From Desulfonatronovibrio magnus (GTDB lineage: Bacteria > Desulfobacterota > Desulfovibrionia > Desulfovibrionales > Desulfonatronovibrionaceae), in the NCBI RefSeq assembly GCF_000934755.1, contig NZ_KN882176.1, positions 81,124 through 145,123 on the forward strand: a DNA stretch of 64,000 nt, written 5' to 3'. Below, piece by piece: positions 2,220-60,114 of this stretch. Under the pieces are notes generated by a model, which was not told where the DNA came from, ran no database searches, and worked only from the letters and a program-made list of their open reading frames with translations. Each line of letters starts with the position of its first letter. Position 1 is the stretch's first letter. Position numbers and translations under genes: made by a program.

Positions 2220-2343
2220 TTTTCATAGCCATATGATTTAGTGAAAATAACATTATAACGACACTCTGCCTGAAATGATAAGCGGTAATTACTCTTCATG
2301 AGTAAGGCAGCAAGCTCAAGGGTCGTATAATGCTAATAAAGTC

Positions 2344-5010
2344 ATGACCCCTCATTCACCGCAGACCTTTCTTGCCCATAGAAGCGACTCCCTGCTTTCC
2401 CTCCCGGGGCAGGGAAGGTCTGCGGCAAAACAACTTACCCGAATCACTGATCAGTATTTTATTCACAGTTTTGCTCAGACATCCATTGCTCAGTTTAAGA
2501 AAATATTCGTGGTTGCAGTAGGCAGCTATGGAAGATCAGAGCTATGTCTGAAGTCAGATATTGATGTAGTCATTATTGCAAACGACCTGTCAGAAGCTGA
2601 TCAGGCCAGGATTGCGTCTCAGATCTTTCATCCTTTGTGGGACCATGGACTTGATGTGGGGCATGCTTTTCGAGATATTAAAGATTGCCTGAGTCTGGCA
2701 AATAAAGATTATACTGTCATGACCTCTTTGCTGGACTCCAGATTTATTTGCGGTGACCGTGAATATTTCAGCCATTATCTTGAACAGGTGAATAATTGTA
2801 TAGAGGCAAGCCATCAAAAGCTCATGGAGCATCTCATAGCTTCGAGAATGCACAGGAGCAACATTGATACAGCCGACAGCTATATGGAGCCGGACATCAA
2901 GGAAGACCCTGGGGGATTTCGTGATTACAATATAATAGGCTGGCTGAAAAAGCTTAGTAAGATCCGGCATGCTGGAAGTACTTCATTGGAAAGTTCAGAC
3001 AGCACTGCCTTTAACATTACTCCGGCAATGGATTTTCTATTTGATGTAAGAAATGTGCTGCATTCGTTGAGTAAAAGGAAAAATAATCGCCTGCATCTTG
3101 ATCTGCAGCCCGAGGTAGCAGCTATATTGGGGTACAAAGGATCATCTCGAAGCTCGGGCACGGAAATATTTCTTGGACATCTTTTTGACTGTCTGAGTCA
3201 GGTGCGACAGGCTCTGCATTTTTATAGTGAAAAAGCTCAGCTGAGCCTTCCCAATCAATGCGTGCAGGCAATACAGTTCATCCCTGAAAGATCAACTGGT
3301 AATCAGTGCATGGTCCAGGTGACATCATCTGTTGAAGTAAACCGGAATTGGGAAGATCCTGAAACGTCTAATGAGCTTTCTCAGCAAGTTAAATTGTTTA
3401 ATGATAAGTTATATTTTGAACAAAATGACTTAATTGTAAAACAAAGGGATTCCGGTCTTGATCTAAAGTTAGTGAAGCTGATTTTTGAGACTATGTCCAC
3501 CACCGGCGTAGAAATATCCACGCACGCACTTTTATTCATGAAACAAATTGCCAGGTCGAGCTGCAGACACGATGACTTCCTTGCCGGTCTGCGCTCACTT
3601 TTTTTATATTTGTTATTCGGTCCAAGACCTGGACAATGCCTGAAAGCCATGCGCCAGTGTGGTTTTTTAGAACTCCTTGTGCCGGAACTGGAAGAGAAGT
3701 GGTATTTTGTGCAATTTGACGGAGTGCATACTTATCCTCTCGGAGAACATACCATGCACTGCCTGGACCTCATTGCTGGAAATAATTCAAACAGCGGATT
3801 TATGCCGGAGCATCTGAACTTATGTAAGGATGACCATGAACTCCGGCTGGCCGCACTTCTTCATGATATAGGAAAAGGTGCAAGGGATCACAGTCAGGCA
3901 GGTGCGGACATGGCTCTGCGTATTATGGTGAGGTTTGACATAGACCAGCTGACTGCGGACATAGTTGCCTGTCTTATAAAAAACCATCTGCTCATGGCCA
4001 AAACCGCGCTAAAAAGGGACATTGACGAGGAAGACGTGGTGGCTGAATTTGCCAGGAAAATGGGCAATCAGGAAAGGCTTAGGCAGCTGACAATGCTTAG
4101 CTATGCTGACTCTAAAGCAACCGGGCCAAGGGTCTGGAATTCATGGCAACAAAACCTGCTGCGCAAGCTTTATTTTAAGGCGCAAAGGATGTTCTCGAGA
4201 ACAATTCTTGCCGGACATCATGCCGGGCACAGGATGGCAGTGGCGCGTGACAGGATAAGATCACATCCTGATTACTCTCAAAGCTGGGAAAAACTCATGG
4301 ACAGCATGCCCAGCCGCTACCTGCTCAAAGTTCCTGTTAAAGAAGTAATCAAGCATACCCGCCTGGTTGAAAGGTTTCAAAAGTTCGAGAATGAACAGGA
4401 CAAAGCATTGAATGTTATTCTGCTCACTGAAAAGGGGCCCATTGGTGACAGTCAGTATTGGAACCTGATACTAATTTCTAAAAATCAGACTGGCCTTTTA
4501 AGTAAGGTTGCCGGTTGTCTGAGCATGAATCAGATAGAGATATATTCAGCCGGGCTTTTTACCTGGGATAATGGAATAGCCGTAGATATGTTCAAGGTGA
4601 GTCCACCCAGGGACCCCCTTTATGCAAGACAGACCTGGCAGGAAGTCCGCAGAGACCTGAGTGATCTCATGAGCAGCAGAAAGAATGCGGCCGATTTCTG
4701 CATGAGGGCATCTAAGTCTGCACCGGCAGGTTCGCGTTTCAGGATCAACTTAGATAATGAATCTTCAGATTTTTACAGCATTGTAGAAATCATTACGCCA
4801 CGTCACCCTTGTTTGACATGGCAGCTGAGTCAGTGTCTTGCAAATTTAAATCTGGATATATGCTTTTCAGTAATATCAACGCACATGGATCAGGCCTCTC
4901 ATGTCTTTTACCTGCGCACTGACAGAGGGGAAAAATTATTTGGCAATACCAGAGAAGTTGTTAAAATGGTGCATGCTGCTGTCCGCGAGTTATTTCCTGC
5001 AAATAAGTAA
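2344..5010 (+). CDS. glnD: PII uridylyltransferase / uridylyl-removing enzyme GlnD
   Basis: Bifunctional sensor that uridylylates PII when glutamine is low and removes UMP when it is high. It has 888 residues, the length of the enterobacterial enzyme. The nucleotidyltransferase motif is at residues 60-74 (GSYGRSE, then SDID), the HD uridylyl-removing site has His507-Asp508 in HDIGKG, and two C-terminal ACT domains (roughly 700-780 and 815-888) should bind glutamine. There is no good Shine-Dalgarno before the ATG at 2344. A five-codon ORF (ATG at 2330) ends on the glnD start with an ATGA-type overlap, so translational coupling is possible but unproven. Confidence 0.95.
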   Translation: MTPHSPQTFLAHRSDSLLSLPGQGRSAAKQLTRITDQYFIHSFAQTSIAQFKKIFVVAVGSYGRSELCLKSDIDVVIIANDLSEADQARIASQIFHPLWDHGLDVGHAFRDIKDCLSLANKDYTVMTSLLDSRFICGDREYFSHYLEQVNNCIEASHQKLMEHLIASRMHRSNIDTADSYMEPDIKEDPGGFRDYNIIGWLKKLSKIRHAGSTSLESSDSTAFNITPAMDFLFDVRNVLHSLSKRKNNRLHLDLQPEVAAILGYKGSSRSSGTEIFLGHLFDCLSQVRQALHFYSEKAQLSLPNQCVQAIQFIPERSTGNQCMVQVTSSVEVNRNWEDPETSNELSQQVKLFNDKLYFEQNDLIVKQRDSGLDLKLVKLIFETMSTTGVEISTHALLFMKQIARSSCRHDDFLAGLRSLFLYLLFGPRPGQCLKAMRQCGFLELLVPELEEKWYFVQFDGVHTYPLGEHTMHCLDLIAGNNSNSGFMPEHLNLCKDDHELRLAALLHDIGKGARDHSQAGADMALRIMVRFDIDQLTADIVACLIKNHLLMAKTALKRDIDEEDVVAEFARKMGNQERLRQLTMLSYADSKATGPRVWNSWQQNLLRKLYFKAQRMFSRTILAGHHAGHRMAVARDRIRSHPDYSQSWEKLMDSMPSRYLLKVPVKEVIKHTRLVERFQKFENEQDKALNVILLTEKGPIGDSQYWNLILISKNQTGLLSKVAGCLSMNQIEIYSAGLFTWDNGIAVDMFKVSPPRDPLYARQTWQEVRRDLSDLMSSRKNAADFCMRASKSAPAGSRFRINLDNESSDFYSIVEIITPRHPCLTWQLSQCLANLNLDICFSVISTHMDQASHVFYLRTDRGEKLFGNTREVVKMVHAAVRELFPANK

Positions 5011-5056
5011 GAATCATGAGCGTTCAAAGTTCCTGGTTCTTTGTTCCTAGTTGGAG

Positions 5057-22764: not shown

Positions 22765-22814
22765 GGACTTCTCATTTTGGTATGGGGTTGGAAGTTACTG
22801 TATTTAAAAAAACA

Positions 22815-23035
22815 GAAAAATTTGAACCGCAAAGGCGCAAAGGACTCAAAGTTAAAGACAATAAAGAAGATATTTTTGAAAATCGGGCATCGGTTTTCAA
22901 AAAGGCTGCCTTATCATTTGCCGCTCCCCGGCAAATGAAAAAATTTCTTTCTTCCTTTGCGCCCTTTGCGTCTTGAGTGAGTCTTCGAACGGGCGGTTAA
23001 AAATATTTTTTTGGGTTGAGGACGAAGCCAGCATT
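22815..23035. repeat. Rep-C element, uninterrupted copy
   Basis: A 220-bp block whose reverse complement lines up with 30010-30370, starting aatgctggcttcg, through aaccgcccgttcg and aagactcactcaagacg, to tcttctttattgtc. Compared with that copy it lacks three short insertions, so it shows the empty sites. It contains a hairpin catttgccg.../...cggcaaatg. Confidence 0.85.
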
Positions 23036-23041
23036 AAATAA

Positions 23042-24205
23042 CTATTTCTTACCGTAATCAACATCAAGTTCCAACCCTTCAATATCCGTAACTTTTTCAC
23101 CCCTCAGCGATTTGACCCGGTCAATCATCTGCTTGAGCCTGGACCGATCCGAAGCATTGAGCATGGCCACGTCTTCAGCAATTATTTCATTTTCATACAG
23201 ATTCATGAGGTACTGGTCAAATGTGGTCATGCCATAAGCATCACCTTCAGCTATAACATTGTAGAATGTTTTTTCATCATCCTCACCGTTAAGGATCAAA
23301 TCTTTAACTCTAAGGTTGTTGCGCATGATTTCAAAGGCAGCAACTCTTCCGCCGCTCTGTCTTAGCATAAGTCGTTGCGAAACAACGTATTTAAGACTTT
23401 CAGCAAGCCTGGATCTTATGAGACGCTCTTCGTTTAGCTCAAACATGCCGATGATGCGGTTGACTGTTTGTCCGGCATCGCTGGTGTGCAGAGTGCCCAG
23501 AACAAGATGTCCTGTTTCCGCAGCCTCTAAGGCGATGGAAATGGTTTCTCTATCTCTGATTTCACCCACAAGTATTACTTTAGGCGCCTGCCGCAGAGCC
23601 GCTCTCAGTCCTGAAGCAAAAGTATTAAAGTCAATGCCCATTTCCCGCTGATTGATAACCGCTCGTTTGTGCTGATGCTGAAACTCCACAGGATCTTCAA
23701 GAGTAACAATGTGTTTATACTCCTGATTGTTAATTTCATCAATCAAAGCGGCCAGAGAAGTAGACTTACCTGTTCCTGTGCCTCCGGTGACCAGAATCAT
23801 GCCGTACTTTTCAGAGGCCATTTCATTGAAGATGGGCGGCAGTTTGAGCTGCTCCATTGAGGGCACTGTCATGGAAAGTTTGCGCATTACTATGGCCAGT
23901 GATCCTTTCTGACCAAATACATTAACCCTGAATCTGGCTTGTCCTGGAAGTTCATAGGACAGATCGCATGATCCGGTATTAAGCTGGTCCTGGTAAAGAC
24001 GCATGTTGCGCCCCATCATGGCCATGGCAACAGCCTCGGTTTGAAAAGGCACAAGAGGCCCAAGTCCGGGCCTGGTTGCAACAGTGATCAGTTTACCATG
24101 AACTTCGGCCTGAATTTTTTTACCCACAGTGAGTATGATATCAGACAGGTCAGGGTAGGCCTGCAAGGTTTGGCTGATGAGGTCGTCCAACTGGGATCTG
24201 AGCAT
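23042..24205 (-). CDS. PilT/PilU-family type IV pilus retraction ATPase
   Basis: 387-residue hexameric secretion ATPase. Walker A GGTGTGKST near 140, Asp box, Walker B VILVGEIRDRET near 208 and the His box TGHLVLGTLHT near 233 are intact; the N-terminal PAS-like domain spans about 1-100. It follows a second paralogue after ten bases. The C-terminus is longer than in PilT (LRGEKVTDIEGLELDVDYGK), like PilU, which assists retraction. Pilus assembly genes are not nearby apart from prepilin peptidase at 28765. Confidence 0.88.
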   Translation of the reverse strand: MLRSQLDDLISQTLQAYPDLSDIILTVGKKIQAEVHGKLITVATRPGLGPLVPFQTEAVAMAMMGRNMRLYQDQLNTGSCDLSYELPGQARFRVNVFGQKGSLAIVMRKLSMTVPSMEQLKLPPIFNEMASEKYGMILVTGGTGTGKSTSLAALIDEINNQEYKHIVTLEDPVEFQHQHKRAVINQREMGIDFNTFASGLRAALRQAPKVILVGEIRDRETISIALEAAETGHLVLGTLHTSDAGQTVNRIIGMFELNEERLIRSRLAESLKYVVSQRLMLRQSGGRVAAFEIMRNNLRVKDLILNGEDDEKTFYNVIAEGDAYGMTTFDQYLMNLYENEIIAEDVAMLNASDRSRLKQMIDRVKSLRGEKVTDIEGLELDVDYGKK

Positions 24206-29535: not shown

Positions 29536-30009
29536 ACTACTCTCGTTGGTTATCAGGTAAAAGGGCACCCGTTCTCTAAGCTTGAGAAAGTGAAGTCTGT
29601 TGAGTCGTGCTGCTGAACTGTACTTGTTAGCCGGGGAAAGGGTATCAAGTCAATACCTGCATTCCTGGTTTCGCTGCAATATTCCAGCTTAATTCTTCCT
29701 GTGTCTTTGTGGGGGGACATGGTCGGCCACACGTAAAACAACTGAACAAACAAAGCAGAATACAGGAATTTCGCCGCTTGAGTAAATTTTTATGAGTGGT
29801 TGAAAATGTGCGATTAAGGATAGAAGACAGCTCCCCGCCAGGGGAGTAATTTTTGCTTGATTTCCATGGCAATACTGTTTAACAATAATATTTTTATTTA
29901 TTTACAGGATTGCCTGATGCAATCTGATCCGTTGGCATTTCAGAATATTTTTTTCCGGTTGCATTTGCAATCAGCCCTTTACGGCTTTACAACAGATTCT
30001 CCCGGCATA
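29536..30009. other. Non-coding region upstream of pilD
   Basis: I see no gene here. Short ORFs on the minus strand lack ribosome sites. A hairpin ctcccc/ggggag (29831-29846) is the only marked structure. Confidence 0.5.
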
Positions 30010-30069
30010 TTTTTCTCTAATGCGGGCTGTGCCCACAACCCAAAAAAAGATATTTTAACCGCCCGTTCG

Positions 30070-30125
30070 CCCCTGTTGAATGGCTGCGCCTACACTTCGT
30101 GTATTTAAATGGTTATCAGGGTAAA
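30070..30125 (+). mobile_element. Mini-P element (56 bp) in Rep-C
   Basis: Inserted between cgttcg and aagactc. It begins CCCCTGTTGAAT; inner hairpins are GGC-TGC-GCC and ACAC-TTC-GTGT; the outer stem is TTGAAT/ATTTAA with one G-T pair. A closely similar element at 52264-52310 occupies the same target motif. Confidence 0.75.
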
Positions 30126-30142
30126 AAGACTCACTCAAGACG

Positions 30143-30196
30143 CCCAGTTAAACCCTGCTGCGCAGGAACGCTTTCAGCGTTGTTAAACCGGGCAGG
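30143..30196 (+). mobile_element. Mini-P element (54 bp) in Rep-C
   Basis: Inserted between gacg and caaaggg. Ends CCCAG and GGGCAGG; outer arms GTTAAAC and GTTAAAC pair with one mismatch; inner hairpins CCTGC-TGC-GCAGG and AACGCT-TTC-AGCGTT. Confidence 0.8.
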
Positions 30197-30240
30197 CAAA
30201 GGGCGCAAAGGAAGAAAGAAGTTTTTCCATTTGCCGGGGA

Positions 30241-30290
30241 ACCCAGTTAAACCCGTCTGCGACGGAGACTACTCCTGTTTAACAAGGCAG
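30241..30290 (+). mobile_element. Mini-P element (50 bp) in Rep-C
   Basis: Inserted between gggga and gcggcaaatg, splitting the loop of the parent hairpin. CCCAG start; outer stem GTTAAAC/GTTTAAC perfect; inner hairpins CCGTC-TGC-GACGG and GGAG-ACTA-CTCC; AAGGCAGG end. Confidence 0.8.
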
Positions 30291-30439
30291 GCGGCAAATG
30301 AAAAGGCAGCCTTTTTGAAAACCGATGCCCGATTTTCAAAAAAATATCTTCTTTATTGTCTTTAACTTTATTTGTTATCTGTTATTTGTTAATTGTTATC
30401 AGGGTAAGGTATTGAATTCAGGCTTTTATTCTTTAACAA

Positions 30440-30584
30440 TTAACTGATAACTAATAACTGATAACTAATAACTAATAACTAATAACTAATAACTAATAAC
30501 TAATAACTGATAACTAATAACTGATAACTAATAACTGATAACTAATAACTGATAACTAATAACTGATAACTAATAACTGATAAC
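30440..30584. repeat. ATAACTR 7-bp tandem array (about 20 units)
   Basis: Runs of ataacta and ataactg, first irregular, then strictly alternating in the right half, which gives a 14-bp higher-order period. Short stretches of the same unit occur at 15501, 25330, 35106, 54201 and 54372. It lies about 100 bases before the PaaK-like gene; no promoter stands out in between. Confidence 0.92.
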
Positions 30585-30683
30585 AATTTATTGTTTTTTA
30601 TGACAGGGTTCCAAGAGTAAGTTACCAATCAGCAGATACGTCACACTGTATTTTTCGCAATCCTGATAAGGAGGACCAGCATA

Positions 30684-52079: not shown

Positions 52080-52159
52080 CCTGTGTGTAAGAATCTGCAG
52101 TAAGTAAATCCCCCAGGCTTCTGTCAGCGGTAAACTCGGCATTTCGCAACTGCAATTTC

Positions 52160-52205
52160 TAAGCGCCTCACCCTGGCGGCCCGGGACCGAACCCGCGAGT
52201 AACTT
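52160..52205 (+). repeat. Rep-A element, copy 9
   Basis: taagcgcctcaccctgg, cggcccgggaccgaac, ccgcgagtaactt. It forms the left border of the Rep-G copy that follows. Confidence 0.85.
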
Positions 52206-52455
52206 GAAATAGCCTTAGCGCGCGATTGCTTCGCTTTGCACGCAACAAGGATTGCCGAGCTCGCCCCAGTTGAATGGCTGCGTCTGCACTGCGTGTATTC
52301 AACGTGGTAAAAGACTCCCTCGCAATGACACCTGAGCTGCCAGGGATGTAGTTGCGCAAAACCTGTCACCCACGAGGCAGCCTAAGCGACAGAAGCAATC
52401 TTTAAGGTAAAGCCATAATGTCTTGATTTTATTGTTAATACAATTCCAGCTGCAT
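52206..52455 (+). repeat. Rep-G element, filled copy
   Basis: gattgcttcgctttgcacgc, attgccgagctcg, [insert 52264-52310], aagactccctcgcaatgac, acctgtcacccacg, gcctaagcgacagaagcaat. Aligns with the reverse complement of 37975-38106 once the insert is removed. Confidence 0.85.
52264..52310 (+). mobile_element. Mini-P element (47 bp) in Rep-G
   Basis: Starts CCCCAGTTGAAT; perfect outer stem GTTGAAT/ATTCAAC; inner hairpins GGC-TGC-GTC and CAC-TGC-GTG. It interrupts ctcg^aagactc, the same motif as at 30069/30126. Confidence 0.8.
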
Positions 52456-57009: not shown

Positions 57010-57462
57010 AATTTTGCCAGAGCGAGGGGGCGGGCCACAGCAAGTGCCTGGTATCAAATACTTAATTGTCAATTTTGCCCTTTGAAAGAGTCCTGTATCG
57101 CTTTTTTTGGAGCCAAAAAGAGTTTTTTTTCAGCCCCAGTGTACTGAAAGAAGGTACTCGGGGCAGGTGCGAAATAACACCCCAGTGAACCCCCCTGCGG
57201 GTGCTAATGGCTGAGCAATTTCACACGGCAGGGAAACTGGCAGATAAGGCTTCCGCCGCAGGGCGGGGCTGGATTAGTGGGGATTGGCGGACAGAGAAGA
57301 AGAGTTAGGTCCGCTAATTTGCGCTAATCTGCGCGAATAAGAATGAAGAGGGATTAAATATCTGCTTTGCTGATCGCAAAGACAGATAACTTCACCGCAA
57401 GGCGGGGTTGAATTTACATTGTGCTGTGTCGTTGGCGGACCTCTTATAATGGGATCTTGATT
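57010..57462. other. Repeat-rich non-coding region before rloA
   Basis: Contains a short Mini-P-like hairpin (57135-57167), a full Mini-P element (57181-57232), the downstream block aaactggcagataaggctt shared with 59911-59930, and small palindromes such as gcgctaatctgcgc (57330). No gene seen. Confidence 0.6.
57181..57232 (+). mobile_element. Mini-P element (52 bp)
   Basis: CCCAG start; outer stem GTGAA/TTCAC; hairpin CCC-TGC-GGG; second hairpin TGCT ... AGCA; end CGGCAGG. Its flank on the 3' side (gaaactggcagataaggctt) is the same as that of the element at 59860-59910, so the pair may have been duplicated together. Confidence 0.75.
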
Positions 57463-59521: not shown

Positions 59522-59659
59522 ACCGGATGGTCGATCATCACACAAATGAACCGCAAACCCCTTCACCTACTTTTTTAAAGGACGTGCTGCGCTGCCCACC
59601 TGAGCAAAGCACGAGAAAGAAAGAAAAGAATATTGCCCACGAAACACTCAAAAAAACAC

Positions 59660-59751
59660 CCCAGTGAAACCCAGTGAAATTCGCTACGCTGAGACTTCGT
59701 CTATTTCACAAGGCGGGCACCCCACAGGGGACCCCGGTTTCACGGGGCAGG
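59660..59751 (+). mobile_element. Nested Mini-P elements (one inside another)
   Basis: Outer element: CCCAGTGAAA at 59660-59669, resuming at 59718 with CACCCCACAGGGG and ending GGTTTCACGGGGCAGG at 59751; outer stem GTGAAAC/GTTTCAC. Inner element 59670-59717: CCCAGTGAAAT start, stem GTGAAAT/ATTTCAC, hairpin AGAC-TTC-GTCT, end AAGGCGGG. Removing the inner one restores a complete outer element. Confidence 0.75.
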
Positions 59752-59859
59752 CGAAAGAAGAAATAAGAAAGAAAAAGAAGAAGAGATTTGTCCACGAAAC
59801 ACTCGAAATATCACGAAAAGAAGAAAGAAGAAAAGGATACATTATCTGCCATGTAAAAC

Positions 59860-59910
59860 CCCAGTGAAATCCCTGCGGGTGCTCATGGCTGAGCAATTTC
59901 ACAGGGCAGG
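59860..59910 (+). mobile_element. Mini-P element (51 bp, most regular copy)
   Basis: CCCAG; perfect outer stem GTGAAAT/ATTTCAC; hairpins CCC-TGC-GGG and TGCTCA-TGGC-TGAGCA; end AGGGCAGG. It lies in the non-coding stretch 59522-60114, which otherwise holds AG-rich low-complexity DNA (59755-59835) and no gene. Confidence 0.8.
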
Positions 59911-60114
59911 GAAACTGGCAGATAAGGCTTCGCCGCAAAGCGGGGGAAGAATTTATTTTGCATGTTCAGCGTGTTTAGTGTTCAGAGTTCTCGTACCAGC
60001 AGGGTGGCCCCCACAATATCCGTATCAACTATGCCGCTTTTCCTGAAGGCATAGAGCTTTGAAGTGGTCCTCTGGGGCAGGCACTTTTTCCACATCTAAG
60101 CCTGTAGCGAATGA

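Follow-up and report, generated by a model that had tools for sequence, protein, structure and literature searches.

The window analysed here is a stretch of 64,000 nucleotides from a 4.81-Mb draft genome in 134 contigs (G000, the host genome). The host is, by inference, a soda-lake sulfate reducer and a haloalkaliphilic member of the Desulfovibrionales, and the named neighbours of a window gene are Desulfonatronovibrio and Desulfonatronospira metagenome-assembled genomes. The window contains two copies of a repeat, Rep-C, in opposite orientations. A first-pass annotation had proposed that one copy carries extra segments of 56, 54 and 50 bp, each clean at both sides, that the other copy lacks. 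A global alignment of the two copies (30000–30380, plus strand, against 22800–23060, minus strand) returned three clean insertions exactly where the annotation had placed them, and the flanks ran on without an indel on either side of each; the boundary of the 54-bp insert can also be placed one base leftward. These inserts and further units of the same family in the window are as follows.

30010–30370, plus strand: Rep-C host repeat, filled at sites 25, 41 and 86 (aligned with the empty copy; the host genome has 52 BLAST matches)
22815–23035, minus strand: Rep-C host repeat with all five sites empty (alignment to the filled copy)
30070–30125, plus strand: inserted unit at site 25, degenerate, 56 bp (48 bp in other copies; alignment; 11.6 bits)
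30143–30196, plus strand: inserted unit at site 41, 54 bp, consisting of CCCAGTTAAAC, two hairpins and GTTAAACCGGGCAGG (alignment and fold; 66.6 bits)
30241–30290, plus strand: inserted unit at site 86, 50 bp (alignment and fold; 59.3 bits)
52264–52312, plus strand: site-25-type unit within a different repeat, Rep-X (covariance model and repeat listing)
57180–57233, plus strand: weak copy similar to the unit at 59859 (9.7 bits; direct repeat D10)
59659–59752, plus strand: nested pair, with an inner unit at 59669–59718 within an outer unit CCCCAGTGAAA...GGTTTCACGGGGCAGG (covariance model)
59859–59911, plus strand: unit with the outer stem GTGAAAT/ATTTCAC (36.3 bits)

The covariance model that scored the 54- and 50-bp inserts was built partly from the families of those same inserts. 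All three segments had been described as an outer stem around two hairpins; this held for the 54- and 50-bp inserts and failed for the 56-bp insert, whose outer stem is broken: compared with the 48-bp form, its right side carries an 8-bp change (ATTCAACTGGGTAAA to ATTTAAATGGTTATCAGGGTAAA). The 56-bp insert is a damaged member of the family, the other copies being 48 bp long with an intact outer stem. In the named relatives the neighbouring genes align but no alignment is seen for the intergenic sequence upstream of 30684, and therefore the Rep-C copy at 30010–30370 is not shared at this locus.

Several other repeats lie in the window. A tandem array of TAACTGA/TAACTAA heptamers (30435–30598) stands directly beside the filled Rep-C copy. 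Rep-X (52140–52400) is a second host repeat, and a site-25-type unit was present in 30 of the 30 copies read; the search query included the unit, so that any empty Rep-X copies would have been under-sampled and this count is uninformative on filled versus empty sites. A repeat of 54 nt, AGTTACT...AGTAACT, encloses a GC-rich hairpin; it recurs at 5048, 5353, 8958, 28483, 37877, 51096 and 52154, and may be a second family of hairpin units.

Anatomy and fold of the units

The plan of the unit is CCC, a 7-bp outer stem, two hairpins mostly with 3-nt loops, and GGGCAGG, so arranged that the stems meet in a three-way junction without a gap; in the best members no base is unpaired at the junction. 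The 54- and 50-bp inserts follow this plan, with CCC, the 7-bp outer stem, the two hairpins and GGG succeeded by CAGG. Across the family the length ranges from about 35 to 57 bp, and a CC(C) start and a GGGCAGG end enclose one or two short hairpins. A strict parser could split 46 units cleanly, and in these alone 15 sequences of the first hairpin stem and 21 of the second occur in different pairings, and the loop has 3 nt in 39 units for the first hairpin and in 38 for the second.

The stem sequences vary widely but their pairing is almost only Watson-Crick. In 131 distinct aligned rows, 94.9% of the cells at paired positions were paired, compared with 71.9% in shuffles, and two-sided changes numbered 548 against 161 in shuffles; when the partners were slid by one column, the paired cells fell to 43%. 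The percentage is inflated because the structure guided the alignment, which also includes some opposite-strand readings of the same unit. The cells comprised 2361 Watson-Crick pairs, 28 G-U and 57 A-C. Because G-U is rarer than A-C, the opposite of what is expected if selection acted on the RNA of this strand, the structure is most simply one of DNA, and the counts thus point to a DNA-level structure.

Copies, empty sites and the direction of change

A covariance model built from six units served for a genome search of the kind that the annotation had suggested. At a threshold of E up to 1 it gave at least 120 matches in the host genome, and it gave matches in at least 29 of the 61 genomes of the order that were searched, host included; a family confined to this one locus, which would have spoken against inserted units, is excluded by the many copies elsewhere. 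In 82 stretches it gave at least 217 matches, some of them on both strands or in duplicate loci. No units from two well-sampled families of the order were among the matches listed in the 61-genome search. At a stricter threshold, at least 10 of 297 genomes of the phylum, again including the host, contained units, and the distant ones from other families have the same shape with different stems. Viral contigs gave no match to a strict unit pattern, and plasmids gave none to the site-41 unit. Only 2 of 58 unit midpoints fell within open reading frames, against a background of 63%. Some of the copies are due to passenger spread within larger repeats. One tandem pair, made up of two different units, differs hardly at all between the host (L162–L164) and genome G006 (L287), which represent two genera, suggesting transfer or recent spread.

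More filled and empty pairs were found in Rep-C itself. In 40 distinct host copies, units occupy five sites (25, 33, 41, 86 and 172); at each site most copies are empty and some are filled, and in 12 copies all five are empty; a few short inserts scored as filled may not be units. In the relatives, 19 of 34 copies are empty at all five sites, and another family of the order is among the empties. Since the copies are mostly empty, also in other genera and in another family, the short form is likelier to be ancestral, and the relatives thus do not bear out the objection that the long form came first. In G006, sites 25, 33 and 41 hold the same units as in the host, and site 86 in both G006 and G009 holds a different unit of about 37 bp with a single hairpin.

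The direction of change is clearest where units interrupt genes. In G009, an 82-bp unit that itself holds a nested unit splits a Y1-transposase gene before the HIH motif, and intact copies from G009 and the host genome have the empty site CTCGAA|TCATATT; a T stands on both sides of the unit and a single T at the empty site. On host contig C4 (L185, about 2340–2530, reverse strand), units break up a Y1/RAYT-like transposase gene at two positions. As intact paralogues give the exact empty site, the direction of insertion is certain at the interrupted genes. Another unit, of 57 bp, lies in frame in a receiver domain (G009, C1:859331; L215, about 383–470); translated, it would form an extra loop. 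Units were also seen nested within units and in tandem with a 54-bp period, different units joined to each other included, and in G006 one unit type recurs between unrelated flanks. The insertion point is usually between a purine and C, and any target duplication does not exceed 1 bp (a T in one gene, a C elsewhere), its placement being ambiguous. What these comparisons establish directly is clean insertion, its direction in genes, nesting, tandem arrays, conservation of structure over sequence and a mostly intergenic placement.

The annotation's central claim, that the segments are inserted units, is supported by the widespread family and by gene interruptions with intact paralogues, and is qualified by what happens at the Rep-C sites. 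There a given site holds the same unit in different copies, with patchy occupancy, and on the tree of Rep-C backbones filled and empty copies lie intermingled (at site 41, 10 changes against a shuffled mean of 11.1), although sequences this short leave most branches weak (50 of 70 unresolved). With the same unit recurring at one site and its occupancy not following the tree, the filled and empty copies cannot be counted as independent. Several independent insertions at one Rep-C site are improbable. The pattern is better matched by a single insertion and, after it, spread along with Rep-C, gene conversion or precise excision; some of the emptiness may reflect precise loss or gene conversion.

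Known systems, possible movers and rival explanations

REP nucleases cut folded single-stranded REP sequences after C beside palindromes, a 3-nt loop being described in one case (PMC8266576), and excision of REPINs has been reported (PMC3116915). Like REPs and REPINs, the units are short, high-copy, extragenic, non-autonomous palindromes found in tandem clusters, and the cut after C resembles their insertion rule; they differ in having a three-way junction and not one stem. We considered REP membership. The units meet its high-copy, extragenic and palindromic features, but no GTAG or CGTC tag occurs in the listed units and flanks, the unit ends being CCC(C)AGT and GGGCAGG, and no linkage to RAYT genes was found at the Y1 loci read. 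With tag and gene linkage missing, membership fails on the features tested.

The nearest parallel in behaviour is offered by the mitochondrial GC clusters and double-hairpin elements of yeast and Allomyces, mobile palindromic units of about 40–50 nt that occur in tandem, merge and shuffle hairpins, and whose agent is unknown (PMC4478555; PMC5910586, citing Paquin et al. 2000). Unlike these mitochondrial elements, the present units reside on a bacterial chromosome, their hairpins are enclosed by a conserved outer stem, and the duplication is 0–1 bp instead of AG or ACT direct repeats. Cyanobacterial small dispersed repeats (SDRs; Elhai 2008) are reportedly very small units inserted into larger repeats, and shorter and simpler than these units, a likeness of description and not one drawn from sequence. 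Geobacter genomes, from related bacteria, contain multicopy palindromes in intergenic and intragenic positions (PMC2700814, PMC2996986), a resemblance of kind and placement that need not extend to sequence. Integron attC sites have a consensus of RYYYAAC on the 5' side and GTTRRRY on the 3' side. The outer stem GTTRAAY/RTTYAAC fits these consensus letters, but the order of the arms is reversed in the units and the stem variants GTGAAAY and GTAAAAC do not fit, and attC was rejected.

The annotation had also stated that no transposase is encoded. This is correct for the units themselves and not for the genome, which has ten Y1-transposase matches. None of these ten genes has a detected unit within 1.5 kb, the Y1 loci of the relatives gave one unit match in 29 loci, and in 20 Y1 stretches of G009 the only unit matches were in two copies of the interrupted gene plus two weaker ones. 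Across 61 genomes, unit and Y1 counts were weakly correlated, with a Spearman coefficient of 0.27 (p 0.04, uncorrected for kinship); six genomes have at least four units without a Y1 match, and 15 have Y1 without units. Five unit-rich stretches contained no unit-flanked transposase or autonomous gene, and the GC skew of G009 was too irregular for the strand orientation of units to be read against it.

We consider it probable that the units are a family of non-autonomous mobile DNA units defined mainly by structure and moved in trans, most likely by a nuclease of HUH/Y1 type, no enzyme having been tied to them. The unit inserts cleanly with a target duplication of zero or one base, and a completed unit can in turn receive another, so that nested and tandem units result. 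A folded single strand, or a cruciform, is inferred to be what is recognised and moved. The likeliest mover, an inference with weak support, may be a HUH/Y1-type nuclease that recognises hairpins, in the manner known from REP and IS200/IS605 mobility, and later spread is inferred to have made the units passengers of host repeats such as Rep-C, perhaps aided by gene conversion or precise excision. It is a possible but doubtful extension that they constitute a class of mobile element identified by the shape of its DNA, that is, a self-nesting three-way-junction hairpin with inner stems free to change, moved by an undescribed enzyme.

Some of the same features would also be expected of MITE-like remnants of an ordinary double-strand transposase or a short-core recombinase whose full-length element has not been found: the units are non-coding, have near-palindromic ends and high copy numbers, and insert into genes. 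We regard this as unlikely, because the possible target duplication is only 0–1 bp, a transposase that reads terminal repeats would not need the inner stems to covary as well, and no unit-flanked transposase gene was present among the stretches read, although that search was not exhaustive. Less likely again is an origin and spread of the units that needs no enzyme of their own and proceeds by template switching, hairpin-primed repair synthesis and gene conversion between repeats. Such processes would suit the interchangeable hairpins, the recursive nesting, the Watson-Crick-perfect stems and the same unit at the same Rep-C site across scattered backbones; clean, complete units with fixed ends in unrelated targets, coding genes included, are hard to obtain without an enzyme.

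For Rep-C alone, the long form could be ancestral and the short copies could have lost their hairpins by deletion, as palindromes are prone to deletion and near-identical backbones differ in occupancy. This is very improbable, since the copies in other genera and another family are mostly empty, loss by deletion would need exact removal at five sites, and the intact transposase genes prove gain at those places. We give the least credence to structured RNA elements, such as terminators or riboregulators, that only seem mobile. The intergenic placement and stable fold of the units would agree with it, and against it stand the scarcity of G-U pairs relative to A-C mismatches, the interruption of genes, nesting and tandem arrangement, and the absence of an Rfam match to the units: the Rfam search of the window returned only tRNA at the gathering threshold and otherwise weak sub-threshold matches attributable to chance.

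The units are a real and well-evidenced family of very small mobile DNA units whose mobilising agent is unidentified. Bacteria commonly carry very small palindromic repeats, yet to our knowledge direct proof of their insertion is scarce. Here, exact before-and-after pairs are available from interrupted genes with intact paralogues, from filled and empty repeats and from nested units. Because the shape persists although the stem sequences change, and G-U pairs are nearly absent, it becomes directly testable in vitro whether the shape of DNA alone can be read by an enzyme.
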